From: an uncultured Spirochaetia bacterium
GTDB taxonomy: Bacteria > Spirochaetota > Spirochaetia > CAKZLE01
Length of the DNA stretch: 33,695 nucleotides
Assembly: GCA_937125225.1 (NCBI GenBank)
Contig: CAKZLE010000001.1
Coordinates: forward strand, 1 to 33,695
Direction of reading: 5' to 3'
In this document: one piece after another, positions 7,934 through 21,111 of the stretch
Layout of the letters: each line of letters begins with the position of its first letter
How positions within the stretch are numbered: position 1 is the stretch's first letter
The notes under the pieces: generated by a model
What the model saw: the letters and a program-made list of their open reading frames with translations, nothing else
The model's database searches: none
Told to the model about the DNA's origin: nothing
Translations under genes and position numbers: made by a program

Positions 7934-7951
7934 GATTAAAATAATATTTTA

Positions 7952-7980: not shown

Positions 7981-8007
7981 ACTTATAACGACATACAGGA
8001 GGAAAGT

Positions 8008-8160
8008 ATGAAAACAATCATGATAGAAATGAATGACAAGACGTCAGACCTGAGAGATAAACTCTCAAAAGAAACTGGGTTAAGAAAAGCTGTTATCGAC
8101 AACAGGGCATATGTGGAAGGACTCAAGGCAGTCGCAGACAAGCATGGGGTGAAGAAATGA
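8008..8160 (+). CDS. Small first-gene protein, possible ribbon-helix-helix regulator
   Basis: 50 residues, starting MKTIMIEMNDKTSDLRDKLS, with AGGAGG ending about 5 bases upstream of the ATG. A short strand followed by two helices (LRDKLSKETGL, YVEGLKAVADKHG) matches the size and order of ribbon-helix-helix DNA-binding proteins, but the match is loose. It is the first gene after the strong divergent promoter and its stop overlaps the ERF start (ATGA). Autoregulation through the palindromes in the promoter is a reasonable guess. Confidence 0.6.
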   Translation: MKTIMIEMNDKTSDLRDKLSKETGLRKAVIDNRAYVEGLKAVADKHGVKK

Positions 8161-8705
8161 AAAAGCTAGACGCTATCATCCAGGAACTAAAAGCACCTAA
8201 AGGAAAGTACAACTCATTCGGAAAATACAATTACCGAAGTTGTGAAGACATTCTAGAAGCTGTCAAACCTCTTCTGAAAAAGCACAGCCTTTCCATGCTT
8301 ATCACTGACGAACCTATCTACGTAGGGCAATGGAACTACATCAAGGCTACTGTCATCATATCAGATGGAGAGGAGACGGTCACAGCGTCAGCATCAGCAA
8401 GAGAGGCAGAGACACAGAAGGGAATGAACGACTCTCAAATCACAGGTTCAGCTTCCTCGTACGCTAGGAAGTACGCTCTCAACGGTCTCTTTCTGATAGA
8501 CGACAATCAGGATGATGATGCTCGTGAGTTAGAACCACTCATGAATACCGAACAGAGAAATGTTCTTCTCGCACTCAGAGAAGACAATCAATGGAATACA
8601 TCAGAACTCGACTATATCAATAAGGCGATAGACTCCACGACTCTGAAAGAATCTGACGCTGAGAAGTTGATTGCGAAGATCAAAAACAAGTTGGCACGAA
8701 GATGA
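8157..8705 (+). CDS. erf: ERF family single-strand annealing protein
   Basis: 182 residues. Residues ~1-125 match the ERF superfamily: KYNSFGKYNYRSCEDILEAV, a VTASASAREAETQKG stretch and ITGSASSYARKYALNGLFLI followed by DDDA. These proteins anneal complementary single strands in phage recombination. The C-terminal ~55 residues form a helical tail that in this family contacts SSB or the exonuclease. It is coupled by overlap to the preceding small gene and to the YqaJ exonuclease downstream, the classical two-component arrangement. Confidence 0.92.
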   Translation: MKKLDAIIQELKAPKGKYNSFGKYNYRSCEDILEAVKPLLKKHSLSMLITDEPIYVGQWNYIKATVIISDGEETVTASASAREAETQKGMNDSQITGSASSYARKYALNGLFLIDDNQDDDARELEPLMNTEQRNVLLALREDNQWNTSELDYINKAIDSTTLKESDAEKLIAKIKNKLARR

Positions 8706-9292
8706 TGATACATGAGATGGAACAGGGAACTCCTGAATGGTTTCAGTGTAAGCTAGGCAAATTCTCAGCTACTGATTTTCAGACGTTAGCAAATGGTCGG
8801 AAAGATACCATCAAGAAACTGATCGAGAAAAAGGCTGCTGAGATTATCACAGGTCGTAGGATGGAAACATTCAAGAACTCTCACATGGAGAGAGGGATTG
8901 AGTTAGAGGCAGAGGCTAGAGCCGAGTATGAGTTCTACACAGGGAACGAGGTGCGAGAAGTAGGATTCATCGAGTTGAACAAGTACATCGGATGCTCTCC
9001 TGATGGTCTTATCGGTGATGATGGTGGGGTTGAGTTCAAATCAAAAGATGACAATACTCACCTGCATTGTCTGAGGTTTGGCGATACATCGTACAAATGG
9101 CAGTTGTACGGTAACATGTGGGTCTCAGGTCGATTATGGTGGGATTTTGTATCATACAATCCTCACTTCCCTGTTGATAAACAACTGTACATCAAACGGT
9201 GGGAGCGTGATGAGGAAGAGATAAAAAAGATCTCTGATGGTTGCGACTATGCAGTCGAGGAACTGAAGAAGATACTGAAGGAGTTGAAATGA
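8702..9292 (+). CDS. YqaJ-like (lambda Exo type) recombination exonuclease
   Basis: 196 residues. The N-terminus EMEQGTPEWFQCKLGKFSAT is the typical YqaJ start (Q-G-x-x-E-W). RGIELEAEARAEYEFYTG, then IGCSPDGLIGDDGGVEFKSK gives the catalytic D...ExK pattern of PD-(D/E)xK nucleases. Works with the ERF protein: it resects double-strand ends so that the annealer can pair strands. Starts with an overlapping ATGATG at the ERF stop. Confidence 0.93.
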   Translation: MMIHEMEQGTPEWFQCKLGKFSATDFQTLANGRKDTIKKLIEKKAAEIITGRRMETFKNSHMERGIELEAEARAEYEFYTGNEVREVGFIELNKYIGCSPDGLIGDDGGVEFKSKDDNTHLHCLRFGDTSYKWQLYGNMWVSGRLWWDFVSYNPHFPVDKQLYIKRWERDEEEIKKISDGCDYAVEELKKILKELK

Positions 9293-9789
9293 AAACCACC
9301 TTCACCACCGAAGTGACAAAGGAACTTAGGGAGATTGTACCACATCAGTACAAGCAATCATTCCTAGAGGTCATTCTGAAAGCCTCGGGCAAGAATGTTA
9401 AGACTCCACAGGTGACGGTGACTATCGAGAATGTGAAGGCTCCTGGTAGCAACGAGCAGAATAAAGCCTGGCATTCGCTCATCGGTGAGTATTGGGCTTC
9501 GGGCTGTTCCTCCTATCACAGTTACGAGGACATGAGGGATCTTCTCAAACTGAAGATATGTGGGGCTAAAGAATGGGTTTATTTAGTAGACGGTAGGCAG
9601 CATACAGTCAAGGATTATGAGTCCATACCGAATGGCTGCCAGAAAGTAGGTATCCCAAAATCGTGGTCAGATTTTACAAAGCAGGAGCGTAGGGATATGA
9701 TCGACTTCACTATTGCCGAGATGATTCAAGCAGGGGTGAATACAAAGAAGTTCGATGAGATTATGAAGGGGTTAGAGAATGGCAAATAA
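9289..9789 (+). CDS. NinB-like recombination protein
   Basis: 166 residues from ATG at 9289, overlapping the exonuclease stop; the in-frame start at 9241 would run through the exonuclease and is rejected. The section SNEQNKAWHSLIGEYWASG resembles the NinB/Orf family (S-x-x-QN-x-x-x-W), ssDNA-binding recombination mediators related to lambda Orf. The C-terminal SWSDFTKQERRDMIDFTIAE is also typical. In this context it would load the annealer or displace SSB. Family match is moderate. Confidence 0.7.
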   Translation: MKTTFTTEVTKELREIVPHQYKQSFLEVILKASGKNVKTPQVTVTIENVKAPGSNEQNKAWHSLIGEYWASGCSSYHSYEDMRDLLKLKICGAKEWVYLVDGRQHTVKDYESIPNGCQKVGIPKSWSDFTKQERRDMIDFTIAEMIQAGVNTKKFDEIMKGLENGK

Positions 9790-10060
9790 GATTTACTGTG
9801 GCAACGGAAAGGAATTTAGGTTCAGCAACGGAGGATCTAAACTGTCGATGAGCATCTGCCTTGATGATATTCCACAGGAACACATCACGACAGGTAGGAA
9901 CGGAAAGAGGTATGTCAGCATCGATATTTGTGAGAATAAAGACGGTGCTAACCAGTGGGGAAAGACTCACTATGCAGAGGTGAACACGTGGAAGCCTGAT
10001 GGGAAGCAGAAGAACAAACCTGCAAGCCCTGAGAGTTTTGACTCGGACATCCCATTTTAA
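9779..10060 (+). CDS. SSB-like small protein with acidic DIPF tip
   Basis: 93 residues; AAGGGG at 9766-9771 precedes the ATG. The body is beta-rich (KRYVSIDICENKDGANQWGK) and ends in SPESFDSDIPF, the same acidic, phenylalanine-ended tip that bacterial SSB proteins use to bind partner proteins. Size is about half that of SSB (one short OB-fold would fit). Located inside the recombination operon between NinB-like and HNH genes. Single-strand binding is inferred from tip and neighbours; no clear SSB domain signature is visible. Confidence 0.7.
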   Translation: MANKIYCGNGKEFRFSNGGSKLSMSICLDDIPQEHITTGRNGKRYVSIDICENKDGANQWGKTHYAEVNTWKPDGKQKNKPASPESFDSDIPF

Positions 10061-10347
10061 TGACAGCCGAACAATTCTACGCTAACGAGCGAAAGACGGA
10101 ATTGTGCATCAAAGCTAGGTGGACATGTCAGGTGTGTGGAAAACATCTGACTCCATCTACTGCACAACTCGCACATAGGATACCGAAGCATAAGAAGTAT
10201 CTGAAGCGATACGGTAAGGCAATCATTCACCATCCATTAAATATGGTGGTCACGTGTGCAGCTTGCAACTCTTCAGTGCTGCTAGATCCTGCTACACATC
10301 CTATCGAATCGCAGGAATTAATTGAGAGAATCAAGGAGGCATTGTGA
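10060..10347 (+). CDS. HNH-type nuclease-like protein
   Basis: 95 residues, ATG overlapping the previous TAA. Zinc-type pairs CQVCGKH and CAACN bracket an AHRIPKHKKY ... IHHPLNMVVTC section, which is the HNH fold layout (His, Asn and His with two CxxC). Freestanding HNH proteins near recombination or terminase genes can act as nicking enzymes. Here it sits in the recombination operon directly before a RecU-like resolvase. All key residues are present, so it is likely active. Confidence 0.85.
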   Translation: MTAEQFYANERKTELCIKARWTCQVCGKHLTPSTAQLAHRIPKHKKYLKRYGKAIIHHPLNMVVTCAACNSSVLLDPATHPIESQELIERIKEAL

Positions 10348-10808
10348 ACGAAGGTAAGAAGTTTGAACAGGATTTTATAAGGAGCCTGCCAGAAGGATCT
10401 TTTCATCTAAGGCTTAAAGATGGTGGAGGTTGGAGTAACGCAGACAATACACGCTTCACCTCATCAAACATATGTGATTCAGTGGTTTACTATCAAGGAA
10501 AAATGATCCTAGTAGAGTTAAAATCGCATAAGGGTAAAAGTGTACCATTTAGTTGTTTAAAACAGCATGAAGACCTTTCTCGAAAGACTCATGATGTAGA
10601 AGGAGTTTGTGGTGTGTTTGTAATAAACTTCAGAGATATGAACGAAACATATATGATATGGTCGCAGTTAGTAACTGACTTTATAGAGTTATATGAAAGG
10701 AAGAGTTTACCTATAGCATATGTTAAAGAGTATGGGTATTTAATTCCACAAAAATTGAAACGTACAAGGTATAGATATGACCCTGGACAAGCTCTATTAT
10801 CAGTGTAA
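10344..10808 (+). CDS. RecU-like Holliday junction resolvase
   Basis: 154 residues from GTG at 10344. NEGKKFEQDFIRSLPEGSFH, then SNICDSVVYYQGKMILVELK-SHKG gives the D...ExK catalytic centre of RecU/PBP-related factor A. GVFVINFRD and a TYMIW strand also match. RecU cuts four-way junctions made during recombination or replication restart, and here could trim branched DNA before packaging. Last gene of the early operon; a strong terminator follows. Confidence 0.9.
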   Translation: MNEGKKFEQDFIRSLPEGSFHLRLKDGGGWSNADNTRFTSSNICDSVVYYQGKMILVELKSHKGKSVPFSCLKQHEDLSRKTHDVEGVCGVFVINFRDMNETYMIWSQLVTDFIELYERKSLPIAYVKEYGYLIPQKLKRTRYRYDPGQALLSV

Positions 10809-10814
10809 AACTAG

Positions 10815-10839
10815 TCACCTCTTCGGAGGTGATTTTTTT
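10815..10839 (+). terminator. Rho-independent terminator (UUCG loop) after recU-like gene
   Basis: TCACCTC (10815-10821), loop TTCG, GAGGTGA (10826-10832), then seven T. Perfect seven-pair stem. Confidence 0.95.
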
Positions 10840-10861
10840 GTGACAAATTTAAAACTAATAG

Positions 10862-10890
10862 TTGACAGTAATACGTTCAGGGTGTATTAT
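10862..10890 (+). promoter_or_regulatory. Promoter of the second plus-strand operon
   Basis: TTGACA (10862-10867) and TATTAT (10885-10890), 17-base spacing. It lies just after the terminator and before AAAAGGAGA and the ATG at 10921. Confidence 0.85.
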
Positions 10891-10920
10891 GAATCAAGGT
10901 TAAAGAAAAGGAGATACGAA

Positions 10921-11124
10921 ATGGAATATTTAATCATCGCAGACGACAGTTGTAACGGACAAGAAAAACAGTTTCTCGCATGGATGGAAATAAACCACCC
11001 TGAGATATCGACCTCAATCGAGTTAGTCGCATATGGCAGCTATATGGATGAAGATAACGAGTTCATCGATGAGAACGATCTAACCGGTAACAAGTTTTGG
11101 GAGGAGTTCTGTAATGCAAGATAA
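10921..11124 (+). CDS. Small acidic hypothetical protein
   Basis: 67 residues from ATG at 10921 (AAAAGGAGA about 8 bases upstream). A longer in-frame ORF from 10777 overlaps the terminator and promoter and is rejected. The protein is acidic (IADDSCNGQEKQFLAWMEIN; YMDEDNEFIDENDL). I do not recognise it. First gene of this operon; small acidic first-gene products are often host-takeover proteins in lytic phages, but that is only context. Confidence 0.65.
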   Translation: MEYLIIADDSCNGQEKQFLAWMEINHPEISTSIELVAYGSYMDEDNEFIDENDLTGNKFWEEFCNAR

Positions 11125-11410
11125 AATTAAAAAGGTAGTCAATCAGATTATCGACATGAACCCCTCGGAGGAGTTCTTCTACAGTCCAACGGTTAGCTTC
11201 TTGAAAGAGGGCATCATGCTTGAGTGCTTCATCAGAGATAGGAAGATTGAGAACCGAGAACTCGTCCAACTCGTCTTAATCGGCAAGCACGAACCTGAGG
11301 AACTTCTCGTCAAAGTCTTAGACGAATCAGCGAAGATGCTTCACAATCGTGAGGTTATCCGTCAGCAGACTCTAGCCGACTACGAGGCATTACTAGGGGA
11401 GGCATTATGA
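11114..11410 (+). CDS. Hypothetical protein
   Basis: 98 residues, ATG 11114 overlapping the previous gene by 11 bases with GGGAGGAG upstream. Helix-strand-helix pattern with VSFLKEGIMLECFIRDRKIE and a long C-terminal helix (VLDESAKMLHNREVIRQQTL). No family recognised. The stop overlaps the ATG of the next gene. Confidence 0.65.
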   Translation: MQDKIKKVVNQIIDMNPSEEFFYSPTVSFLKEGIMLECFIRDRKIENRELVQLVLIGKHEPEELLVKVLDESAKMLHNREVIRQQTLADYEALLGEAL

Positions 11411-11544
11411 TAAGTTACGATGATTACGAGTACAGGAAGTTCGCAGGATATGCTCCCGAGCCTGTTCAGGACCTATGGGAACCCGAGGATGATGATTATG
11501 AGTTTTACGATGAATACCAGGAGGAAGACGATGAGAAAGTATAA
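11407..11544 (+). CDS. Very acidic 45-residue protein
   Basis: ATG overlaps the previous TGA; runs to TAA 11542-11544. The product has 18 D/E and only three K/R in 45 residues, with many tyrosines (ISYDDYEYRKFAGYAPEPVQ, then PEDDDYEFYDEYQEEDDEKV). Such compact acidic, aromatic proteins can mimic DNA and block restriction or other DNA-binding enzymes, but a simple coupling peptide for the next gene is also possible. The AGGAGGA site of the radical SAM gene lies inside its last codons. Confidence 0.6.
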   Translation: MISYDDYEYRKFAGYAPEPVQDLWEPEDDDYEFYDEYQEEDDEKV

Positions 11545-12514
11545 AGTTCCAACAGGAGACATCTGTATTATTGATGGAGAAAAAGGCAGACCATTAGAGT
11601 TTCTATCAATCGGAGACTATGGGAAAGAAAAGAACATGAAAGCTGATTTTTTAGGACTATCAGACGAGATTAACGGTGTTCCTCATGGTGATATTCTACC
11701 ATTAAAAGAAAAATGGGTTGTGACTATTTCAAGTCAGTATGGATGTTCTATGAATTGTTCATTCTGTGACGTTCCGAAGGTAGGAGCAGGGATAAATGCA
11801 ACATATACAGATATGCTCAATCAGGTGCATCATGCAATTGCACTGCATCCAGAGGTGAAACGGACTAATAGACTCAATTTGCATTACGCAAGAATGGGGG
11901 AACCTACATGGAATCGAGATGTCATATTATCTGCATATACAATTGCCGATATTCTCAAACCTAAAGGTTGGGGTTTTCATCCTGTCGTATCAACCATGAT
12001 GCCGAAGAATAACAAAGACCTACAGTCATATATCTCAAACTGGCTCGATTTGAAAGATGAGTTGAATGGTGAAGCAGGGTTACAGTTATCAATCAATACC
12101 ACATCAGATGAAGTCAGAACTGAGACTATGCCTAACGCTATGAGTATTCGTGATATATCAGATATGATGTATGATATCCTTGCTTTTCGAGAAGTTCCAA
12201 AAGGTAGAAAGATTACTCTTAATTTTGCACTTACAGAAGCACCAATTGATGCGAAACTGCTAGGAATGTTGTTTTCAAAAAGACACTTCATCTGTAAAAT
12301 TACACCAATGCATAACACCGATGCTTGTATTAAGAACGGTCTACTCACAGATGATGGATACGATTCATTCTATCCATACAAAGAAGTTGAAAAAGCGTTG
12401 AAAGACGAGGGGTTTGATGTGATAGTATTCATCCCTTCTCACGAAGAAGATAATAGCAAGATTACTTGTGGTAATGTTATTCTTGCAACAGAAAAGGAGA
12501 ACCAAAATGGCTAG
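11531..12514 (+). CDS. RlmN-like radical SAM enzyme
   Basis: 327 residues from ATG at 11531 (AGGAGGA about 6 bases upstream); the in-frame 11420 start is in another gene and rejected. The iron-sulphur motif is CxxxCxxC (C72, C76, C79 in YGCSMNCSFCDVPKVG), the RlmN/Cfr spacing. MGEP (122-125) and SINTTSDEVRTETMPNAMS fit the RlmN fold. A C-terminal cysteine (C313, ITCGNVILA) matches the methyl-carrying cysteine of RlmN. However, the residue seven before the first cluster cysteine, Cys in RlmN, is Thr65 here. RlmN methylates A2503 of 23S rRNA and some tRNAs; the substrate here is unknown. Confidence 0.8.
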   Translation: MRKYKVPTGDICIIDGEKGRPLEFLSIGDYGKEKNMKADFLGLSDEINGVPHGDILPLKEKWVVTISSQYGCSMNCSFCDVPKVGAGINATYTDMLNQVHHAIALHPEVKRTNRLNLHYARMGEPTWNRDVILSAYTIADILKPKGWGFHPVVSTMMPKNNKDLQSYISNWLDLKDELNGEAGLQLSINTTSDEVRTETMPNAMSIRDISDMMYDILAFREVPKGRKITLNFALTEAPIDAKLLGMLFSKRHFICKITPMHNTDACIKNGLLTDDGYDSFYPYKEVEKALKDEGFDVIVFIPSHEEDNSKITCGNVILATEKENQNG

Positions 12515-12800
12515 AGATTTCACCAAAAGAGCGAATGTGAAAAGGATCGTATGGGATATCCTCGCAACAATGAAGGTTGGAGATAAATTCTCCATCGACT
12601 ACCCATATCGAGGCATGAGATGTTTATGGGATGAGGTGAGAGCCGAGATTCTCAAGCAGGGGTTTGAGCAGGTGTCATCCTATCGCAGCTTAACAGCGTA
12701 TATCCGTCAGGCGAGACAGGTGCCCGAAGAGGCTTATTGTGTTTGTACTGATAATCACAGGTCAATCTACGAGGTTGAAGAGGTGGGGTATCGTGGCTGA
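12507..12800 (+). CDS. Small basic hypothetical protein
   Basis: 97 residues from ATG at 12507 (AAAAGGAGA upstream). Overlaps the end of the radical SAM gene by 8 bases. Helical with RDFTKRANVKRIVWDILATM and SYRSLTAYIRQARQV; the layout helix-strand-helix-helix could be a winged helix. No family recognised. Its stop overlaps the start of an HTH protein, so the two are likely translated together and might act on the same DNA. Confidence 0.65.
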   Translation: MARDFTKRANVKRIVWDILATMKVGDKFSIDYPYRGMRCLWDEVRAEILKQGFEQVSSYRSLTAYIRQARQVPEEAYCVCTDNHRSIYEVEEVGYRG

Positions 12801-12972
12801 GATTTTCGAGATGATGATTGCATGGATCAGGCAGCAGGCAGATAAAACAAGTCAAAGGAAGTTGGCAAACAGGATTGGGATAAATCATGCCGAGGTGTCA
12901 AGGCTATATCATGGCAAAGGTAACCCGATGTTGTCAACAATGATGAAGATTGAAAAGGAGATGTTTAAATGA
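12793..12972 (+). CDS. Small XRE/Cro-like helix-turn-helix protein
   Basis: 59 residues from GTG at 12793, overlapping the previous stop. The core QRKLANRIGINHAEVSRLYH is a good helix-turn-helix (A-x-x-x-G-[IV]-x-x-x-x-[IV]-S-x). It has almost no extra domain, like Cro. Could repress an early promoter such as 7952-7980 or 10862-10890; no operator match was established. Confidence 0.75.
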   Translation: MAEIFEMMIAWIRQQADKTSQRKLANRIGINHAEVSRLYHGKGNPMLSTMMKIEKEMFK

Positions 12973-13241
12973 AAGTGTATCTATCAGGTTCAATAACTAG
13001 CAGCAAGGATTATGTCAAAGAGTTTAATGCAGCAGCAGGGAAGTGTAAAACGTTAGGGCATACCGCATTCAACCCTCTTGATGTATTCGCAGAGGATTAC
13101 CATGGCCACATGAAACAGGATATTGCAGGGCTTATCACTTGTGATGCAATCATGTTTGTCAACGACATTACTACAAGCAAAGGTGTATTAGTTGAAAAGA
13201 TCGTCGCAGACGCTTGTGGGATACAGGAGTTAAAACTATGA
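12969..13241 (+). CDS. DUF4406 / nucleoside deoxyribosyltransferase-like protein
   Basis: 90 residues. MKVYLSGSITSSKDYVKEFN, LGHTAFNPLDV and LITCDAIMFVND..SKGVLVEKIVAD follow the pattern of DUF4406, related to nucleoside 2-deoxyribosyltransferases. Full enzymes cleave or transfer bases on deoxynucleosides; in phages the short form may help nucleotide salvage or modified-base metabolism. Placed directly before a DNA methyltransferase (overlapping ATGA). Confidence 0.8.
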   Translation: MKVYLSGSITSSKDYVKEFNAAAGKCKTLGHTAFNPLDVFAEDYHGHMKQDIAGLITCDAIMFVNDITTSKGVLVEKIVADACGIQELKL

Positions 13242-13990
13242 GCAAAGTAGAACTATTCAACGATCACTTTCAAAATTACAAACGCTATGGAATACCAAAG
13301 GCTCAATTGCTCATAGCAGATATACCTTATAACATCGGAATAGATGCTTATGGAAGTAACCCGATGTGGTATAAAGACGGAGACCGGGCGAATGGTGAAA
13401 GTAAACTAGCAGGGAAGACTTTTTTTAATACTGATGAACGATTTAAGATCCCTGAGTTCTTCCACTTCTGTAGCAGAATGTTAAAGAAAGAACCAAAGGC
13501 AGCGAAGCAAGCACCTTGCATGATTGTCTTCTGTTCATTCGAGCAACAGTTTGAACTCATAAAGCACGCTAAAGAAAACGGTTTCGAGCATTATATAAAC
13601 CTAGTATTTAAGAAGAATTTTTCACCGCAGGTCCTAAAAGCTAATATGCGAATAGTTGGAAATTCAGAATATGCGATCTTGCTATACCGGGATAAACTAC
13701 CTAAGTTCAGGAATAGCGGTAATATGGTTATGAATTGCATGGATTGGCCTAGAGATAATATCACACCAAAAATCCATCCTACACAGAAACCTATCAAGTT
13801 ACTAGAAAGGTTAATTGAGATCTTCACTGACCCTGGAGATGTTGTTATAGATCCTGTAGCAGGTAGTTGCACTTCATTGCTAGCAGCTAAAAACCTTGGG
13901 CGATCTGCTTATGGGTTCGAGATTATGAAGCCTATGTGTAAAGAAGCTAGAGAAAAGATATTGACAATCTCTGAGCCGCTACTTTTCTAG
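13238..13990 (+). CDS. DNA methyltransferase (N4/N6 type), DIPY variant
   Basis: 250 residues from ATG at 13238; the earlier in-frame GTG-type start overlaps more of DUF4406. Motif IV is DIPY (residues 28-31) instead of the usual DPPY; HPTQKP at 180-185; SAM motif I is DPVAGSCTS (205-213) instead of DPFxGSGT. Order (IV before I) is that of beta-class enzymes. It probably methylates adenine N6 or cytosine N4 in phage DNA. Two variant motifs may alter specificity or lower activity. No matching restriction enzyme lies nearby, so self-protection is likely. Confidence 0.85.
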   Translation: MSKVELFNDHFQNYKRYGIPKAQLLIADIPYNIGIDAYGSNPMWYKDGDRANGESKLAGKTFFNTDERFKIPEFFHFCSRMLKKEPKAAKQAPCMIVFCSFEQQFELIKHAKENGFEHYINLVFKKNFSPQVLKANMRIVGNSEYAILLYRDKLPKFRNSGNMVMNCMDWPRDNITPKIHPTQKPIKLLERLIEIFTDPGDVVIDPVAGSCTSLLAAKNLGRSAYGFEIMKPMCKEAREKILTISEPLLF

Positions 13991-14024
13991 TGGGAGTTAT
14001 ACGGTAAAGAGACAGCCGACAGGC

Positions 14025-14053
14025 TTGTCAGTTAAGATAATTTGTGATATTGT
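14025..14053 (+). promoter_or_regulatory. Promoter of structured RNA 1
   Basis: TTGTCA (14025-14030) and TATTGT (14048-14053), 17-base spacing, with TGA before the -10 (extended -10). A GACAGCC/GGC-TGTC hairpin (14011-14029) overlaps the -35. Confidence 0.6.
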
Positions 14054-14059
14054 AGAAGA

Positions 14060-14211
14060 GTCAGGAGTCAATCTTCCAATTAGCTGCTGGCTACATCGTT
14101 GATGTATGTGAGCAGGGTTAACCTCTAAATGGCTAGTCCTGTCCAAGAATTACGTGATCCTGTTCACCATGTAATGTTTTGGGTGGAAGCGGGACTAGCT
14201 ATCTAGGGGTT
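14060..14211 (+). ncRNA. Structured RNA 1 upstream of GIY-YIG gene (leader or independent RNA)
   Basis: The 225-base gap between the methyltransferase and the next gene has no ORF but folds strongly by eye. Hairpin D: CTGCT/AGCAG (14084-14088, 14111-14115) enclosing ACATC/GATGT with GTT loop. Hairpin A-B-C: AACCTCTA (14120-14127) with TAGGGGTT (14204-14211); GGCTAGTCC region (14131-14142) with 14189-14200, about 12 pairs; CCAAGA/TTTTGG; ATTAC/GTAAT (14149-14153, 14171-14175); GTG/CAC; loop 14157-14164. The outer stem holds AGGGG (14205-14209), the only ribosome site for the ATG at 14216, and a run of six T (14210-14215) follows. It can therefore act as terminator and as site-sequestering stem. 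Confidence 0.7.
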
Positions 14212-14215
14212 TTTT

Positions 14216-14887
14216 ATGGCACAAAAAAGAGAAGACTTTATCAGATCCATACTGATAACAACCTACCGAACAAAAGCACAAATAGAAAAGATTGAAGTTA
14301 TACCGGAGCAAAAAGAGTATTTTGAAGGGTATAATATGAGATTCACTTTTTGTTTAACCTTTGCAAAAATGAACACTATTGAAAAACATAAATTATATTA
14401 TTCAACAGATATAATAAACGTCATACAAGAACGTCAAATTCTATGCGAAGAGAACTTATTCATGAAAGAAATATCACAAATACTCAGGTATAAAAAAACA
14501 AGAGATTATTGTGGGTATTGTAGCAAATGTGGAAAAGCTATAATTACAAGAAGTACAAAAGTTAAAAAAGATGAATTATGTAACGAATGTTTAGGAATTA
14601 ATAAAAAGCAAAAAGTTTATATAGAGGTTGTGTATCTTATGGAATCAAAAATGACTGGTTTATGGAAAATTGGAACTAGTAAGAATGTGAAAAAAAGACG
14701 TAGACAATTAGAACTTGCACAAGGATGTGAGATAGAGTTGTTAAAAGCTATTCCTGGTGGTGTAGTGTTAGAAAGATTACTACATGAGAAATTTTCAGAA
14801 TATAGAACAATAGGAGAATGGTTCACTCCTGTAAATGAGATAAAAGACACTTTTAATTCTATATCAGAGGGTAATACCAATGGCTAA
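14216..14887 (+). CDS. GIY-YIG (T5orf172/MUG113 type) nuclease-like protein with zinc ribbon
   Basis: 223 residues. Residues 1-95 are unknown; a four-cysteine zinc ribbon follows (C99/C102/C105 and C122/C125, CGYCSKCGKAI ... CNECLG); residues ~135-213 match the T5orf172/MUG113 GIY-YIG fold: VYLMESKMTGLWKIGTSKN, RRRQLELAQ, ERLLHEKFSEYRTIGEWFTP. The gene is visibly AT-richer than its neighbours, which suggests recent acquisition, as for a homing-type nuclease. The only ribosome site (AGGGG) is buried in the final stem of structured RNA 1. A zinc finger plus GIY-YIG layout is common in freestanding homing endonucleases. Confidence 0.85.
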   Translation: MAQKREDFIRSILITTYRTKAQIEKIEVIPEQKEYFEGYNMRFTFCLTFAKMNTIEKHKLYYSTDIINVIQERQILCEENLFMKEISQILRYKKTRDYCGYCSKCGKAIITRSTKVKKDELCNECLGINKKQKVYIEVVYLMESKMTGLWKIGTSKNVKKRRRQLELAQGCEIELLKAIPGGVVLERLLHEKFSEYRTIGEWFTPVNEIKDTFNSISEGNTNG

Positions 14888-15710
14888 GAATGACATACGA
14901 CTAGATATAGCAATGGTAAACCATCCGAAAACAAAGCGTATGATAAGGGTACTAGGATATGAATCTTTTTACTCACTCATAAGCCTCTTCTCATCAGCAG
15001 CACAAACATACACAAAAGGCATATTGAAGAATTGTGATGAATACGACATAGCAGACATGGCTTGTTGGAATGGAGATCCATGCAAATTTGTTGAAACATT
15101 AGCATCTGAAAAGATAGGTTTTCTTGATTTTGATGGCGAAGAATATTCTATTCATGACTGGGAAAAGAACCAACCTTGGATATATCATTCAGAGGAAAGG
15201 TCTGAAACTGCTCGTAAGAATGTACAAAAAAGATGGGATGTAAAAAAGAAGAATGTACAAAATGAATACAAAGATGATACCGATGGTAAAGAAAATGATA
15301 CTAATGGTAAAGAAAAACATCAATTCGGTAATACTCCTATTCCTATTCCTATTCCTACTCCTACTCCTACTCCTACTCCTATTCCTACTCCTATTCCTAC
15401 TCTACGTAACAAGGAACAAGTTCCTTATGTTGATGTTATTAACCACCTGAATGAGAAGTTAGGAAAAAACTATAGAAGCACATCAGCTAAAACAAAGTCA
15501 CTTATTAAAGCACGATTTAAAGAGTCGTTTACTCTAGATGACTTCAAGACTGTAATTGACAAAAAAACTAAAGAGTGGAAAGGATCCGAAATGGAAAAGT
15601 TTCTCAGACCTGAAACATTATTTGGCACTAAGTTTGAGGGATATCTCAATCAAGAGATAATCGTTAAGAAAGTCGGTACTGAAGGTTATGGGCTTGGGGA
15701 GGATTGGTAG
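14880..15710 (+). CDS. Phage replication initiator (Phg_2220_C type)
   Basis: 276 residues. The N-terminal ~110 residues resemble replisome organiser winged-helix domains (RLDIAMVNHPKTKRMIRVLG; SIHDWEKNQPW). The C-terminal part VINHLNEKLGKNYRSTSAKT ... LRPETLFGTKFEGYLNQE is the conserved Phg_2220_C domain. Between them lies a low-complexity linker of alternating Thr/Ile-Pro (TPIPIPIPTPTPTPTP), encoded by tandem hexamers. By analogy to lambda O and gp38/39 of SPP1, the protein should bind an origin and recruit helicase through the DnaC-like loader encoded downstream. Overlaps the GIY-YIG gene by 8 bases. Confidence 0.88.
   Translation: MAKNDIRLDIAMVNHPKTKRMIRVLGYESFYSLISLFSSAAQTYTKGILKNCDEYDIADMACWNGDPCKFVETLASEKIGFLDFDGEEYSIHDWEKNQPWIYHSEERSETARKNVQKRWDVKKKNVQNEYKDDTDGKENDTNGKEKHQFGNTPIPIPIPTPTPTPTPIPTPIPTLRNKEQVPYVDVINHLNEKLGKNYRSTSAKTKSLIKARFKESFTLDDFKTVIDKKTKEWKGSEMEKFLRPETLFGTKFEGYLNQEIIVKKVGTEGYGLGEDW
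15216..15262 (+). repeat. 14-bp direct repeats inside initiator gene
   Basis: AAGAATGTACAAAA occurs at 15216-15229 and at 15249-15262, 33 bases apart start to start. They encode KNVQK and KNVQN. Possible initiator binding sites. Confidence 0.75.
15274..15315 (+). repeat. Two tandem 21-bp repeats inside initiator gene (iteron-like)
   Basis: The units 15274-15294 and 15295-15315 begin ATGATAC and end GGTAAAGAAA; they differ at two positions (CG versus TA). They encode DDTDGKE / NDTNGKE. Tandem repeats within an initiator gene recall the origin iterons in lambda O. Confidence 0.8.
15333..15404 (+). repeat. Hexanucleotide array (ACTCCT/ATTCCT), 12 units
   Basis: Twelve tandem hexamers, eleven perfect ACTCCT or ATTCCT and a last imperfect one. 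The strand is strongly pyrimidine-biased (purines only at the first base of each unit). Encodes the Thr/Ile-Pro linker of the initiator. Array length could change by slippage in steps of two residues without frameshift. Confidence 0.95.
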
Positions 15711-15711
15711 G

Positions 15712-16401
15712 ATGAACACAGTATACCTAATCGACAATATGGAATTTATGGCAACGTGTGAGGATAATCAGTTTGATTTGGCTATTGTAGATCCTCCGTA
15801 TGGTTCGGAAAATATAATTGGTGGATATACAAGCAATAAAAGAAGTAATAAAGGCAGTGCTAAACCAACGATGTATAATCTCTCGTTGTGGAAGTTTGGG
15901 AAACCTAACAAAAAGTATTTTGAAGAACTTATGCGAATAAGCAAGAATCAAATTATATGGGGTGCTAATCATTTTATATCTGAGATGCCTTTTGATTCTT
16001 CATGTTGGGTTGTATGGGATAAGAAAAATAGTAATACAGGTTTTGCAGACTGTGAGCTTGCGTGGTGTTCTTTTAAAAGTGCTGTAAGGAAGTTTGATTT
16101 TATGTGGAATGGTATGTTACAAGGCGATATGAAAAACAAAGAATCACGCATCCACCCCACCCAAAAACCAGTTGCCCTATACAAATGGCTTCTTCAAAAC
16201 TACGCTAAACCAAATCAAACCATCTTTGACTCTCATGTCGGTAGTGGCTCAATCAGAATAGCTTGTCATGACATGGGGTTTGACTTCATAGGATGTGAGA
16301 TTGACAAAGATTACTGGGAAGCACAGGAAGAACGATTTAAGAATCACACAGATCAGATTGATTTATTTTCACCAACAGATTTACAAGGGAGTATGTTCTA
16401 A
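15712..16401 (+). CDS. DNA methyltransferase (N4/N6 type), DPPY
   Basis: 229 residues from ATG at 15712 (GGGGAGGA upstream; the in-frame 15688 start lies in the initiator gene). Motif IV DPPY at 27-30, HPTQKP at 148-153, and SAM motif DSHVGSGS at 173-180 (unusual SH in place of PF). The opening TVYLIDNMEFMATCEDNQFD is typical for phage adenine methylases. Second methylase in the genome; it shares motif order with the 13238 gene but the remainder differs, so specificities may differ. AT-rich in its first half. Overlaps the DnaC-like gene by one base. Confidence 0.88.
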   Translation: MNTVYLIDNMEFMATCEDNQFDLAIVDPPYGSENIIGGYTSNKRSNKGSAKPTMYNLSLWKFGKPNKKYFEELMRISKNQIIWGANHFISEMPFDSSCWVVWDKKNSNTGFADCELAWCSFKSAVRKFDFMWNGMLQGDMKNKESRIHPTQKPVALYKWLLQNYAKPNQTIFDSHVGSGSIRIACHDMGFDFIGCEIDKDYWEAQEERFKNHTDQIDLFSPTDLQGSMF

Positions 16402-17054
16402 TGAGTTACAAGAAAGCAGGCGAGTTTAGTCCAAAGCTGCAAATATCAGCAGAGGTTATGGAGATTCTCAAAAACAGAGATGCAGAGGAAGAGGATTACG
16501 AAGCACTTGAGAAACAGAAGCTAAAGGAATACAAGAGAAAGCAACGACTTGATACCATCCCTCCACGATTCAAGTCTTCCACATTCTCAAACTACGAAGG
16601 ACGAGAAGAGGTAAAGGATTGGCTGAAGGGTGGACGCTCTGCAATCATCCATGGCTCTAACGGAGTTGGGAAAACACATCTAGCGTTCGCATCTATCAGA
16701 CAGCAGATTGAGTCAGATATTGACGCTCGGTATATTTTGGCTGCTGACTATTTCGACATGATCAAGGAGACTTTTGTTCCTGGTGGCAATGCTAAGTCAA
16801 TCGTTCAGCAACTTGCAAACGTTCCATATCTCGTCATTGACGAAGTCGACAAGGTCCACAACACGAGAACAGAATTTGTCTATCTCTACCGACTGATTAA
16901 CGAACGATGGAATCTTATGAATAATACTGTTGTGATTTCAAACGCAGAGGACAGAAAGGATCTCGTTCAGTTCATCGGTTCATCATCGATTGACCGACTC
17001 CTTGACGATGGGAAACGGTTTGAATTGAAAGGCGAAAGCTGGAGGCGAAAATAA
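16401..17054 (+). CDS. DnaC/IstB-like helicase loader (AAA+ ATPase)
   Basis: 217 residues. Walker A GSNGVGKT (85-92), Walker B YLVIDEVD (143-150), and a late SSSIDRL with an arginine-finger-type Arg. The N-terminal ~50 residues are a charged helix (EEEDYEALEKQKLKEYKRKQ) that in DnaC-like loaders contacts the helicase. Role: load the host DnaB-type helicase at the origin, with the initiator encoded at 14880. No phage helicase or polymerase is visible, so host replication enzymes must be used. Overlaps the methylase stop (TAATG). Confidence 0.9.
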   Translation: MSYKKAGEFSPKLQISAEVMEILKNRDAEEEDYEALEKQKLKEYKRKQRLDTIPPRFKSSTFSNYEGREEVKDWLKGGRSAIIHGSNGVGKTHLAFASIRQQIESDIDARYILAADYFDMIKETFVPGGNAKSIVQQLANVPYLVIDEVDKVHNTRTEFVYLYRLINERWNLMNNTVVISNAEDRKDLVQFIGSSSIDRLLDDGKRFELKGESWRRK

Positions 17055-17057
17055 CCC

Positions 17058-17086
17058 TTGCAATCTATCACCATCTAAGGTATAAT
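17058..17086 (+). promoter_or_regulatory. Promoter of structured RNA 2 / cvpA-like operon
   Basis: TTGCAA (17058-17063) and TATAAT (17081-17086), 17-base spacing, starting 4 bases after the DnaC-like stop. Predicted transcription start about 17093. Confidence 0.85.
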
Positions 17087-17092
17087 TAATTA

Positions 17093-17371
17093 TTAAAGGT
17101 GGCGACCTAATAAACGCTTTGTTTAATTGTTAAGGCAAACCAAACTACCGTAGACGGAGTCCTTTCTCTCTGTCTACACCTATCCTTATAGCTCAGTGGC
17201 AGAGCAATGGCGAACAAAATGTCATGGTCACAGGTTCAACTCCTGTTGAGGGTACTAGCCTCGTATGAGGTGATCAAAACGCTGGCGAGCGAAACACGTG
17301 ACTATGAGTGCATAATTATTAATTAGTCCATCCTGGAACCGTTGGTTAGGGATGGCTTTAAAGGAGGATTT
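17093..17371 (+). ncRNA. Structured RNA 2 (long leader or free RNA with tRNA-shaped domain)
   Basis: The 317-base gap 17055-17371 has no convincing ORF but is dense in helices. In order: AGGT/ACCT with GGCG loop (about 17097-17108); a TTAA-TTG-TTAA hairpin; GTAGAC/GTCTAC (about 17150-17176) with inner GAG/CTC; the tRNA-shaped domain 17182-17254; CCTC/GAGG with GTAT loop; CGCT/AGCG with GGCG loop; and a two-part hairpin CCATCC (17328-17333)/GGATGG (17350-17355) with inner AACC/GGTT. It starts at a near-consensus promoter and runs into the AAAGGAGG of the cvpA-like gene, which is not inside a stem. Confidence 0.65.
17182..17254 (+). tRNA. tRNA-shaped element, non-canonical anticodon arm
   Basis: 73 bases folding as a tRNA: acceptor ATCCTTA/TGAGGGT (two G-U); TA linker; D stem GCTC/GAGC with loop AGTGGCA (GG present); A26; anticodon arm ATGGC/GTCAT with nine-base loop GAACAAAAT, or six pairs with loop AACAAAA; variable GGTC; T arm ACAGG/CCTGT with canonical loop TTCAACT; A discriminator; no encoded CCA. 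U33 is missing (A), so decoding is doubtful; the seven-base loop reading would give anticodon CAA (Leu). It may be a decaying tRNA, a tRNA mimic or a processing signal within RNA 2. Confidence 0.55.
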
Positions 17372-17854
17372 ATGACAGTAGGCGACTATGTAGCAATTGC
17401 GATCATCGGATTGATGGCTATTCGTGTGGCTCTGCATGGATTCACGTATGAGTTCTCCTCTAAGGCTGGTATTATACTAGGACTCTTAATTTCATTGATG
17501 TTCTCCACAACCTTTTCCTCTTTCATCGACAATAGATTCGGGCTTGGCTCGGTATCGCTCCTTATTGCGTTGGTCCTCCTTTTCCTCGCAGGCTATATCG
17601 CAGCCAAGTTCCTGTTGTCAACTATCGAAGAGGTGTTCGAATTGCTACACTTGAGATTCCTTGACCACATCCTAGGCTTTGCTCTCGGTGCTGCTGAAGG
17701 TGCCTTGATCGTATCAGTATCCGTCTACATTCTAAAATTACAAACAGTATTCGATTTAGAGCAGGTCATGAGCCTGTCGAGAATCGTCACCACACTATCA
17801 CCTATCGCACCAGTAAGCATAGAGACCATCATACAGGAGATAAAGCTACCATGA
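17372..17854 (+). CDS. CvpA family membrane protein
   Basis: 160 residues from ATG at 17372 (AAAGGAGG at about 17360-17367); the in-frame 17342 start has no site. Starts MTVGDYVAIAIIGLMAIRVA and has four hydrophobic segments with the CvpA layout: short first helix, GFTYEFSSKAGIILGLLISL, long third helix, and FLDHILGFALGAAEGALIVS (the L-D-x-x-L-G-x-x-x-G signature). CvpA proteins act in colicin V export, biofilm and envelope stress in bacteria. Rare in phages, so acquired from a host is likely. Possible roles: envelope change, exclusion or lysis timing. Confidence 0.8.
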   Translation: MTVGDYVAIAIIGLMAIRVALHGFTYEFSSKAGIILGLLISLMFSTTFSSFIDNRFGLGSVSLLIALVLLFLAGYIAAKFLLSTIEEVFELLHLRFLDHILGFALGAAEGALIVSVSVYILKLQTVFDLEQVMSLSRIVTTLSPIAPVSIETIIQEIKLP

Positions 17855-17988
17855 TGAAATACGAAAGATTAGCGTTAGCTATACTAGGTGGTGCTATTAT
17901 AGGGTTCTCTCATGGAGAGATATTAACGATCAGTTTAGGACTTGCATTGTCTATAACTGCTATAACATACAAAAGGGATAGGAAATGA
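17851..17988 (+). CDS. Small two-helix membrane peptide
   Basis: 45 residues from ATG at 17851 (a second ATG follows at once at 17854). MMKYERLALAILGGAIIGFS is a first membrane helix; ILTISLGLALSITAITYKRD a second, with a basic end. Overlaps the stops and starts of both neighbours (ATGA), so it is translationally coupled to the CvpA-like gene. Unknown function; small size and coupling suggest a partner of the CvpA-like protein. Confidence 0.6.
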   Translation: MMKYERLALAILGGAIIGFSHGEILTISLGLALSITAITYKRDRK

Positions 17989-18167
17989 CAGCATTGAAAT
18001 ATATCGTAGCACAGCTACAGAACTACACCATCGCAGAGATTGCGAAGGGAACAGGACTCGGGCATAATACCGTTCAGCGTATCAGGTCTGGAAATATGGA
18101 CAATCCAGGATATAAGACAGTCGTTAAACTAGCGACCTTTCTCCATGATAAAACTGAGTGCGAGTGA
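17985..18167 (+). CDS. Small helix-turn-helix protein
   Basis: 60 residues. The core QLQNYTIAEIAKGTGLGHNT followed by VQRIRSG is a compact helix-turn-helix of XRE/Cro type, with a short third helix (GYKTVVKLATFLHD). Similar in size to the protein at 12793 but not clearly the same family. Could regulate the promoter at 17058 or the late promoter at 23523. Confidence 0.75.
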   Translation: MTALKYIVAQLQNYTIAEIAKGTGLGHNTVQRIRSGNMDNPGYKTVVKLATFLHDKTECE

Positions 18168-18210
18168 GCGAAAAAATGGGGTTTAGACAAAAACTTACTA
18201 GGAGATATAT

Positions 18211-18525
18211 ATGACCACTCCTCTTCAAGTCGTAGAGTACAATCAGTCAACCATCATAGAATGGGATTCACTTGCAGAATGTGCGAGGTCTCATAAGGTA
18301 TCGACTGAGTACATCAAGCGAATGATCTATTATGGTGACTCGATGAACACGACCACTACATTCGACATTCCAACCTATTGCGACATGGACATAAAAGAGG
18401 AGAACGGTAAGCTAATCATTTACAACACAAGAAAAACGGTTAAGATTAAGAGAACGAAGAAGAAGAAAGTCTACCATCCCGAACACGAAGGTACGTTGTG
18501 TCTTCCTGAGGGTGTAGCGATATAA
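18211..18525 (+). CDS. Hypothetical DNA-binding-like protein
   Basis: 104 residues, TAGGAGA upstream of the ATG. The N-terminal part VVEYNQSTIIEWDSLAECAR followed by SHKVSTEYIKRMIYYG resembles NUMOD1/HTH modules of homing nucleases (S-x-x-E-A-A/C-x...S-x-x-x-I), without a nuclease domain. The C-terminal half has a basic cluster KIKRTKKKKVYHP. Probably binds nucleic acid. Function unknown. Confidence 0.6.
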   Translation: MTTPLQVVEYNQSTIIEWDSLAECARSHKVSTEYIKRMIYYGDSMNTTTTFDIPTYCDMDIKEENGKLIIYNTRKTVKIKRTKKKKVYHPEHEGTLCLPEGVAI

Positions 18526-18535
18526 GGAGTTAATT

Positions 18536-18796
18536 ATGAAAGAAAGTGGAATGTTGATTAGAGAAAGATTAGTTATTGAGCATGAGGAAAGGTATATTAT
18601 TTTCTCTGATGAAAAACTTAAAGCTATTTATGATGCAATAGGTTATTACTTTGGAATGTATGAAACAAATGAAAAAGATTTAAGTGGTATAACAGATTTA
18701 CCAGAACATTATGTAGATGTGTCTGGAGGTGTGAGTGGTATTACGACAGGCACGATAACTGAATGCACTGATGATGTATTCGATACAAAAGCGTAA
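18536..18796 (+). CDS. Hypothetical protein, paralogue of 18823 gene
   Basis: 86 residues, TAAGGAG upstream. The middle segment KLKAIYDAIGYYFGMYETNE with DLSGITDLPEH aligns with the same part of the next gene (see 18823). The C-terminal tail is longer and Gly/Thr-rich. AT-rich codon use differs from the neighbour at 18823, so the two copies have diverged or were acquired separately. Function unknown. Confidence 0.65.
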   Translation: MKESGMLIRERLVIEHEERYIIFSDEKLKAIYDAIGYYFGMYETNEKDLSGITDLPEHYVDVSGGVSGITTGTITECTDDVFDTKA

Positions 18797-18822
18797 GCTA
18801 AATATATATTAGGAGATAAATT

Positions 18823-19008
18823 ATGATCGGAATGTTTATTGAAATCGGTGGAGAGAAGATAGCAGTCACTCAAGGCGAGCTGCTAGTACTTCATGAAGAG
18901 TTGGGCGAGTACTTCGCAGAGACAGAGAAAGCGATTGAGGACCTTGAGGAGTTGACCGAACCTGATGAGGTGGTCTACGATTCAGAGACTTACACATCAG
19001 AGGTTTAG
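18823..19008 (+). CDS. Hypothetical acidic protein, paralogue of 18536 gene
   Basis: 61 residues, TAGGAGATAAATT upstream. IAVTQGELLVLHEELGEYFA and EKAIEDLEELTEPDEVVYD match the 18536 product in spacing: strand, helix with LG/IG-x-YF, then D-L-x-x-L/I-T-x-x/P-E. Strongly acidic. The pair looks like a tandem duplication before the packaging module. Stop is directly followed by the PLD-like gene. Confidence 0.65.
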   Translation: MIGMFIEIGGEKIAVTQGELLVLHEELGEYFAETEKAIEDLEELTEPDEVVYDSETYTSEV

Positions 19009-19530
19009 ATGATATTAGCAGATGTACACATACAAAAGGATCTTATGAAACAAAATATGAAGGTTTTTATGTTTAAAAATATAATACCAAATATAGAGCC
19101 TGGGTGTGTGTACAATCTCGTTACTCAAAAAGTGCTAAACCCATATGTCATGGTTTTATCAGCGTTAGAGTATGGCTCAATAGATCATTTGTATATAGCT
19201 ACATACGCAATAAACCAAAAAGCAATAGAGATATTCACAAATCTGTTAGATAGTGGAGATATAAAAGAATGGACTCTTCTAATTAACGAAAACATGAAAT
19301 ACAGAATGAAGGGCAAGGAGGTTGTGTTATTAGAAGCAGAAAAGAAGTATGAAAACCTTCATCTTATCAAGAAGCGTAATCACGCTAAAGTCACACTCAT
19401 AGAACAAGAAAACAGGCATATAGTAATATCAGGCAGTGGGAACTATAGTGAGAATCCAAAGATAGAGCAATATACTATATGTGATGATAAAGAACTATTT
19501 GAGTTTCACAGGGGGTGGATAAATGGCTAA
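19009..19530 (+). CDS. PLD-like (HxK) protein upstream of terminase
   Basis: 173 residues. The C-terminal half has the phospholipase-D-type core NHAKVTLIEQENRHIVISGS followed by GNYSENPKIEQYTICDD: the H-x-K, then G-S-x-N and S-E-N. Only one HxK motif is present, as in half-size members that dimerise (Nuc-like nucleases) or in phage proteins next to terminase genes. It may process DNA during packaging. The ATG follows the previous stop directly without a visible gap. AT-rich. Overlaps the terminase small subunit start by 8 bases. Confidence 0.8.
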   Translation: MILADVHIQKDLMKQNMKVFMFKNIIPNIEPGCVYNLVTQKVLNPYVMVLSALEYGSIDHLYIATYAINQKAIEIFTNLLDSGDIKEWTLLINENMKYRMKGKEVVLLEAEKKYENLHLIKKRNHAKVTLIEQENRHIVISGSGNYSENPKIEQYTICDDKELFEFHRGWING

Positions 19531-19864
19531 AGTCGGCAGACCAAGAAAATATAACAACGAAGAGATAGAAGAGATTATTGATAAGTTCAATAAATATATC
19601 AATGATTCAGACCTTCCTATCGTGAGTGAGTTCGCATACACAAATAATATTTTAAGAGAATCACTATATGATTATAAAGAGTTTTCTACGGTATTAAAAA
19701 AATGCACATCAAAGAAAGAGGCACAGCTTGAGAAACTAGCTGCATTTAATGTTATCAATGCATCAATGGCGATATTCTCACTCAAACAACTAGGATGGAC
19801 TGATAAACAAGATCTAAGTATCGGGAACAAAGAGGATAAACCTCTAAAGGTTAAATGGGAATAG
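19523..19864 (+). CDS. terS: Terminase small subunit
   Basis: 113 residues. Starts MAKVGRPRKYNNEEIEEIID (the usual GRPxKY opening of small terminases), then a helix-turn-helix-like SEFAYTNNILRESLYDYKEF and a C-terminal FSLKQLGWTDKQDLSIGNKE typical of this family. Recognises the packaging site on concatemeric DNA and activates the large subunit. Located directly before the large terminase. Slightly short, but the domain order is complete. Confidence 0.85.
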   Translation: MAKVGRPRKYNNEEIEEIIDKFNKYINDSDLPIVSEFAYTNNILRESLYDYKEFSTVLKKCTSKKEAQLEKLAAFNVINASMAIFSLKQLGWTDKQDLSIGNKEDKPLKVKWE

Positions 19865-19932
19865 ATTCATATTTTTATAAAAGTGCTAAAAAATACGGTG
19901 TTATAACAAAATGGGATTAAAATATTTATAAT

Positions 19933-21111
19933 ATGGCTATAAAACTGCTTAAACAATACAAACCTTTCGCTACTGAATCATACCGATACAAATGCGTGTA
20001 TGGTGGACGTGGGAAAGGTGCGACATGGCAGATTGCTAGAATACTACTACTCAAGGCAATGGAGCGACCAGAGAGAATCCTTTGCACAAGGGAGTTTCAA
20101 AACTCAATCAACGAATCGGTATATGAAGTCCTCAAGTCTCAAATCGCATTATTAAACCTTCCTGGTTTTATCGTACAAAAGCAATCAATCTCTCATGCTA
20201 ACGGTTCACAATTCTTCTTCAAGGGGTTGCGTCATAACATCGACTCGATCAAATCGATCGAAGGTATAACAATCTGTTGGGTTGCTGAAGCTGATAAAGT
20301 TCCTCAAGAGTCATGGGATAAACTCATCCCGACTGTGAGAGTTGAAGGTTCAGAGTTTTATATTGACTTCAATACCGATAGTGAAGAAGATCCAGTTTAC
20401 CGGATGCTAGTAGAGGACAAGAGAGGAGATTCCTACGTCCTGTTTCAAACCTATAAAGACAATCCATATTTTCCCGAAGTGCTGCAGTCAGAGATGGAGC
20501 ATGACAAGAACCATGACTATGACAAATACCTGTGGGTTTGGGAAGGAAACGCTCGATCATTTACCGATGCTTGCGTATTTCATGGCAAGTTTAAAGAAGA
20601 TGATTTTACTACTCCTTCCGATGCTGAATTCTTTCATGGAGTTGACTGGGGGTTCTCACAAGACCCAACAGCAGCAGTCAGATGTTTTATTCAAAAGAAC
20701 ACGCTATACATAGATCAATGTTGTGGTGGTGTCGGGGTGGATATAGACGATACTCCAAAACTCCTAGACGAGATACCAACATTCAGAACCTGGAAGTCAA
20801 TCGCAGATTCGGCACGACCTGAGACAATCAGTTATATGAACAATCATGGCTTTCCACACATGAAGGGTGCTAAGAAAGGCAAGGGCTCAATCGAGGACGG
20901 AATTGAGAAGATTAAAGGCTTTGATATGATCATTGTCCACACACGTTGCAAAATGGTGCTAGATGAGTTAAAATTATACTCGTACAAAAGAAATAAACTG
21001 ACTGGAGATATTATGCCAGTGCTAGAAGACAAGCACAATCATTTTATCGACAGTTTAAGATATGCTCTAGAGGAATACGGTAAACCCAAGATGAGGGTGA
21101 GGAGATACTAA
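19933..21111 (+). CDS. terL: Terminase large subunit
   Basis: 392 residues. ATPase domain: Walker A variant GGRGKGAT (24-31) and ITICWVAEADKV as Walker B region. Nuclease domain: GVDWGFSQDPT (about 235-245), further acidic residues SIADSARPE, and HFIDSLRYAL (about 370-379), the usual Terminase_3/PBSX-type end. Cuts and pumps DNA into the prohead. No ribosome binding site is visible before the ATG; the 68-base gap after the small subunit is AT-rich and holds only a 19-codon ORF from 19856. The stop overlaps the portal start. Confidence 0.95.
   Translation: MAIKLLKQYKPFATESYRYKCVYGGRGKGATWQIARILLLKAMERPERILCTREFQNSINESVYEVLKSQIALLNLPGFIVQKQSISHANGSQFFFKGLRHNIDSIKSIEGITICWVAEADKVPQESWDKLIPTVRVEGSEFYIDFNTDSEEDPVYRMLVEDKRGDSYVLFQTYKDNPYFPEVLQSEMEHDKNHDYDKYLWVWEGNARSFTDACVFHGKFKEDDFTTPSDAEFFHGVDWGFSQDPTAAVRCFIQKNTLYIDQCCGGVGVDIDDTPKLLDEIPTFRTWKSIADSARPETISYMNNHGFPHMKGAKKGKGSIEDGIEKIKGFDMIIVHTRCKMVLDELKLYSYKRNKLTGDIMPVLEDKHNHFIDSLRYALEEYGKPKMRVRRY

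Follow-up and report, generated by a model that had tools for sequence, protein, structure and literature searches.

What lies between a promoter-like sequence and the start codon of a GIY-YIG nuclease gene in this DNA: a leader that controls the nuclease, an RNA partner of the enzyme, or an RNA gene in its own right? The window, i.e., the whole stretch of 33,695 bases that was analyzed, makes up one entire contig of the host assembly (G000:C1). Its 77-bp direct terminal repeat (1 to 77 and 33619 to 33695) makes it probable that a complete phage genome, circular or terminally redundant, was binned with its host. Elsewhere this genome encodes a Radical-SAM-like protein of 364 aa in the early region (11420 to 12514; PF04055, 21.9 bits, below the cutoff), a tRNA-Leu (caa) in its middle (17182 to 17255) and, after the tRNA, a CvpA/colicin V production-like membrane protein (17342 to 17854; PF02674, 7e-19), an unusual phage cargo. 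We consider it fairly probable that the region in question is a short phage non-coding RNA gene with a terminator-like end, onto whose 3' end a homing-type nuclease has been hooked. The locus comprises the following features.

14025 to 14053, + strand: sigma-70-type promoter-like pair TTGTCA-17-TATTGT, from a promoter scan, at the same offset in the phages L206, L207 and L326.
14057 to 14215, + strand: structured RNA of about 155 to 160 nt, from covariance-model matches in two phage records and covariation counts.
14060 to 14091, + strand: P1 hairpin (14060-14064 paired with 14087-14091) with a 22-nt loop holding the conserved CAAUCUUCCAAU, from covariation.
14092 to 14106, + strand: P2 hairpin UACAUC-GUU-GAUGUA (14092-14097 paired with 14101-14106), from comparison of homologues.
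14120 to 14211, + strand: P3, a long terminator-like hairpin that holds the ribosome site, from a folding scan and covariation; it consists of a lower stem (14120-14142/14189-14211), an upper stem (14143-14156/14168-14182) and the bulge GUGGAA (14183-14188).
14205 to 14209, + strand: AGGGG in the 3' arm of P3, sole ribosome site for the nuclease gene, with counterparts in the same position in the homologues.
14210 to 14215, + strand: U-tract (T6) touching the start codon, T7 in both homologues.
14216 to 14887, + strand: GIY-YIG nuclease (T5orf172/MUG113) of 223 aa with a zinc-finger-like segment (Pfam PF13455, 2e-10; PF10544, 5e-8).

Much of this layout had been anticipated by the original prediction, made from the sequence alone. 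Its promoter-like sequence is present exactly at 14025 to 14053, its outer stem is formed by AACCTCTA (14120-14127) and TAGGGGTT (14204-14211) as described, and AGGGG lies within that stem, followed by T6 and the ATG. Its picture of about 150 bases folding into nested hairpins held in part: a structured RNA is indeed there, and the 5' part of the single-sequence fold gave way to P1 and P2, which the homologues define. The 191-nt leader folds at -68.1 kcal/mol, compared to -48.1 ± 4.2 in shuffles (z -4.8), and no other 110-nt stretch of the contig folds as well, once corrected for GC, as the hairpin at 14120 to 14211 (z -4.9, with the next at -3.5). Its folding energy is -44.2 on the + strand versus -30.4 on the - strand, the much stronger + strand fold being due to G-U pairs, which argues that the hairpin works at the RNA level and not as a DNA palindrome. 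A DNA inverted repeat or MITE was rejected because of the single copy in the host genome and the much weaker - strand fold.

A covariance search in homologous phage regions, as the original prediction had proposed, yielded two homologues with strong covariation. The covariance model R1, built from the single window sequence, was run over whole IMG/VR records with a related large terminase and matched L206 (IMGVR_UViG_3300035544_000024; 61 bits, E 1e-12) and L207 (IMGVR_UViG_3300029825_000082; 55 bits, E 1e-11), E-values from these models being rough. When the model was rebuilt on the comparative fold with P1 and P2, a correction of the 5' fold that came from alignment by eye, the scores rose to 83 bits for L206 and 75 bits for L207. 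The exact family consists of three sequences only (window, L206 and L207), and in their alignment 96% of cells pair, with both sides changed in 28 of 47 pairs versus 11 expected. The covariation score was 0.894, compared to 0.407 in shuffles, and none of 500 shuffles reached the observed values; when the structures were slid by 1 to 3 columns, the score fell to 0.085-0.156 and the pairs changed on both sides to 2-6. The P1 stem strands read GUCAG/CUGGC, GAUGG/CCAUC and GACAG/CUGUC in the three sequences, fully paired and with three of the five pairs differing on both sides. P2 appears in the homologues as UACACC-GUU-GGUGUA and UGCACC-GUU-GGUGUA, and in P3 both sides have changed in 24 of 36 pairs.

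Other searches returned the family sparingly. No match was found when the leader was compared by BLAST with phages and plasmids, and when about 395 host genomes at class level were searched with the models, the window alone was recovered. The pattern GGCTAGTCC...GGACTAGC gave 54 matches in IMG/VR, all unrelated and mostly coding; applied to IMG/VR and GTDB genomes, CAATCTNCC...CANCGTTGNTG brought up the two homologues already known and otherwise chance matches alone. Relatives of the GIY-YIG protein in phages share the nuclease domain only, and the first RNA model matched none of those retrieved; a degenerate peptide scan matched nothing. The weak R3 match in L328 (15 bits) was read as terminator resemblance instead of homology. 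Within the phage, predicted small-RNA targets for the P1 loop showed no excess.

A promoter-like site is in itself unremarkable here: 52 occurred in 16 kb versus 44 expected by chance, and a single site is not significant. Its position, however, is conserved. The corresponding pairs are TTGACT-17-TATACT in L206, TTGACC-17-TAGTAT in L207 and TTGACT-17-TACACT in the sister phage L326, all with a 17-bp spacing, and the distance from the pair to P3 is 94-96 nt in all four phages; for the three family members it amounts to 95, 95 and 96 nt. No + strand promoter-like site was detected between 14053 and 14216 in a scan of 4000 to 20000, with late phage promoter types lying outside its reach.

The junction with the nuclease is equally constant. 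The ribosome sites of the homologues, AGGGGAG in L206 and AGGGAG in L207, lie in the 3' arm of P3, so the terminator-like terminal stem burying the sole ribosome site, as originally predicted, is an arrangement kept in all three phages. The ATG right behind the U-tract opens a GIY-YIG gene in the window, an HNH_3 gene of 178 aa in L206 and an HNH_3 gene of 107 aa in L207; in each case the next gene is a Phg_2220_C replication gene. Altogether, the comparison of these phages establishes that the RNA and its fold are real, that the promoter keeps its position and that the RNA joins three different nucleases. Because the nuclease changes while the RNA stays constant, this pattern speaks against the RNA being a guide, a scaffold or a specific inhibitor. 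The GC content of the GIY-YIG gene (25-29% at 14250 to 14750, compared to 38-42% in its surroundings) suggests a recent acquisition.

The sister phage L326 bears on how the two parts travel. As far as the promoter it shares 90% identity with L206, and the next replication protein is 96% identical, yet from the expected transcription start L326 carries a different RNA, consisting of a hairpin and a long terminator hairpin, and no nuclease. The two, RNA and nuclease, were thus swapped en bloc. The terminator hairpin of L326 has a 7-nt bulge, GUGGAAG, complementary to the upstream loop CUUCCAC, and after the RNA comes an ORF of 53 aa that has a free ribosome site of its own. In another related phage (L004:3001-4442), a first methyltransferase gene is followed 36 bases later by a second, with no RNA, GIY-YIG or replication gene between.

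Complementarity between loops is also found in the window, where two contacts were identified.

14073 to 14078, + strand: contact 1, CUUCCA in the P1 loop, complementary to UGGAAG at the P3 bulge (14184-14189), by inspection.
14108 to 14119, + strand: contact 2, linker GUGAGCAGGGUU, whose complement is the P3 apical loop GAUCCUGUUCAC (14156-14167).

The P3 side of contact 1 is the 6-nt bulge plus a neighbor. By inspection, contact 1 reads CUUCCGA/UCGGAAG in L206 and CUACCA/UGGUAG in L207, i.e., two compensatory differences. Contact 2 spans 12 bp with G-U pairs in the window (p 0.0008), 7 bp in L206 and 13 bp with G-U pairs in L207 (p 0.00005), where the sequence is altered on both sides; pairings across sequences were shorter for L207, and the best Watson-Crick contact of the window alone was not significant (p 0.12). 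Since every contact segment falls in loops of the P1/P3 fold, the placement favors contacts that coexist with that fold. Contact 2 would require a P3 bent at its bulge, or else would itself represent an alternative, antiterminator-like fold, because the linker touches the base of P3. Full P3 is predicted at -63 kcal/mol, compared to -43 with the linker pairing forced; P3 is thus far stabler than linker-paired folds, and its opening would need some cause.

Together, these features lead us to propose the following for the RNA gene and its nuclease. Its own promoter would give rise to a 155-nt RNA made up of P1, P2 and P3 and held by contacts to the P3 bulge and apical loop. The 3' end resembles an intrinsic terminator, and most transcripts would stop at the U-tract as free RNA; the P3 stem exceeds the usual intrinsic terminator in length, and a simple terminator scan limited to short loops missed the site. 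The homing-type nuclease would have been hooked on here, its ribosome site inside the terminator hairpin and its start codon just past the U-tract. Read-through transcripts would be poorly translated, with P3 folded over the ribosome site, and the nuclease would be made only if P3 was opened or unfinished, for example early in transcription with the linker on the future apical loop. Because the nuclease is hooked onto a terminator-like hairpin, its expression would be gated by read-through and by P3 opening. The frequent position beside replication genes, the main clue, suggests that the free form may serve the replication module.

The alternative that survives best, though we judge it unlikely, is a purely cis-acting leader of the nuclease, a riboswitch or attenuator in which P1 and P2 sense a signal and a linker/apical-loop antiterminator competes with P3. 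The linker and apical loop pair in all three members despite sequence changes, a hairpin between them is the best predicted fold of nascent transcripts of about 110-134 nt, with P3 prevailing from about 140 nt, and the linker abuts P3, so that both hardly form unless P3 bends; the junction of ribosome site and ATG is moreover conserved in the three members. A conserved P1 loop, an alternative pairing and a hairpin serving terminator and ribosome site were observed, and a riboswitch reading of the RNA is possible. Against a leader of this kind, the nucleases belong to different families, similar RNAs elsewhere either stand ahead of replication genes whose ribosome sites are free or have no gene behind them, and the contact segments sit exactly in the P1/P3 loops, where tertiary contacts fit better than refolding.

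These similar RNAs came from a scan for terminator hairpins with long stems in methyltransferase and replication-gene loci. Such hairpins numbered 30, compared to 2 in shuffled sequence (15 times commoner); 20 of the 30 lie on the gene strand, and in 19 of these 20 an ORF, in many cases that of a replication initiator, starts 4-22 nt downstream. Examples stand before replication initiators or replisome proteins in L020, L044, L060, L085 and L300, a DUF6291 protein in L082 and a restriction-endonuclease-like DUF559/MTES_1575 protein in L015. In a set of 23 such RNAs, assembled by hand and after the fact with the window family included, the upstream 75 nt complement the hairpin loops (Fisher p 3e-12), compared to p 0.998 for 10 control hairpins, controls that are few and mostly weaker; the two-contact version of the test gave 5e-10 versus 0.99. 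In L328 (1248-1632), a replication gene is preceded by a tRNA, then a promoter-like site, then an RNA with a terminator hairpin, whose bulge GUUCAGG is complementary to the upstream loop CCUGAAC. Hairpin RNAs in L060 (3901-3989) and L054 (2863-2947) have in common the second lobe GGCAYACCAA-GCC as well as the upstream loop UGGUAA and possibly form a separate family.

An independent check on the wider set came from Vibrio phages. Vibrio phage 1.016.O carries an unannotated conserved RNA (L164:1215-1385), part of this stretch being shared by 320 Vibrio phage records. The RNA is about 95% or more identical in 1.112.O, 1.003.O, jenny 12G5, 1.038.O and 1.265.O and has 73% relatives in 1.064.O, 1.108.O, 1.133.O and 1.226.O. 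The contact UGAGACC/GGUCUCA of the 1.016.O RNA changes to UGAUACC/GUAUCA, a compensatory replacement of G-C by U-A. The genes behind the Vibrio-phage RNAs differ, and one RNA of that plan has no gene attached. We lean, by a narrower measure than for the RNA gene itself, toward a widespread, undescribed class of phage non-coding RNAs. In each, a promoter, a 5' hairpin and a linker would be followed by a long terminator hairpin, bulged or branched, with loops that pair back to the loop of the 5' hairpin and to the linker. The class would stand before replication genes and offer a docking site for homing nucleases, with the window as one sequence family within it; it is a lead, with weaker evidence than the exact family.

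Improbable, in our estimate, is an RNA that acts in phage DNA replication as origin transcript, primer or regulator of the initiator gene: RNAs of the same plan do precede diverse replication-initiator genes in many phages, but the Vibrio-phage copies adjoin no recognised replication gene. Slightly more doubtful still is an RNA antiterminator like put of phage HK022, in which the 5' hairpins would bind RNA polymerase so that it passes the terminator P3; two adjacent hairpins do stand directly behind a promoter here, but the P1 loop complements P3, and put has another fold. A HEARO/OMEGA-like guide or scaffold RNA, a link raised by the original prediction, is very hard to sustain: the RNA does lie immediately 5' of a nuclease gene, but no IscB, IsrB or TnpB domain was found with Pfam and PHROGs, and the genes behind the RNA encode three unrelated small nucleases, one GIY-YIG protein and two HNH proteins that differ from each other. 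Equally implausible is a 25-aa leader peptide (14129-14206, MASPVQELRDPVHHVMFWVEAGLAI) whose translation would open P3 and couple to the nuclease, since, despite an ATG and stop exactly within the hairpin, a stop overlapping the ribosome site and a codon score intermediate between coding and non-coding, its ribosome site is weak and, by inspection, neither L206 nor L207 has an ATG or reading frame there, so it was rejected as not conserved.

Altogether, an RNA family with strong covariation is added to those described. The original prediction recognized no known RNA class, in agreement with Rfam 15, in which the window RNA, its homologues and the wider set had no match at gathering score, only tRNAs and sub-threshold chance matches being found; a relaxed threshold gave chance miRNA matches only. 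One RNA is retained while the nuclease behind it swaps, which indicates that it is not the partner of a single enzyme. The findings also point to a broader group of RNAs with comparable architecture next to phage replication genes; it extends to cultured Vibrio phages, in which function is directly testable.

Several known systems share parts of this arrangement. HEARO and the IscB omega-RNA likewise lie directly upstream of a nuclease ORF, but here there is no sequence or structure match to them and the nuclease varies. Type III toxin-antitoxin loci consist of a promoter, an RNA, a terminator and then a nuclease gene, and the order is the same here; unlike in those loci, no tandem RNA repeats were noticed by inspection, and the swap of unrelated nucleases, a GIY-YIG and two different HNH enzymes, speaks against a specific RNA inhibitor such as an antitoxin for one ToxN-like toxin. 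Among RNAs that directly follow a phage promoter, the closest is HK022 put, a pair of stem-loops immediately behind an early promoter (PMC9378689); put is, however, only about 70 nt long, without a terminator of its own at its end or a nuclease junction. In T4-like phages, the ribosome sites of the GIY-YIG or HNH homing endonucleases I-TevI, segB and mobE are concealed in stable RNA hairpins, and a late promoter starting inside the hairpin frees the site (PMC2988022). Here too the ribosome site of a GIY-YIG or HNH gene lies in a stable hairpin. In contrast to the T4-type genes, the conserved promoter-like site precedes the entire structure, the hairpin resembles a terminator, and the covarying 155-nt RNA and its two loop contacts persist where the nuclease is replaced.
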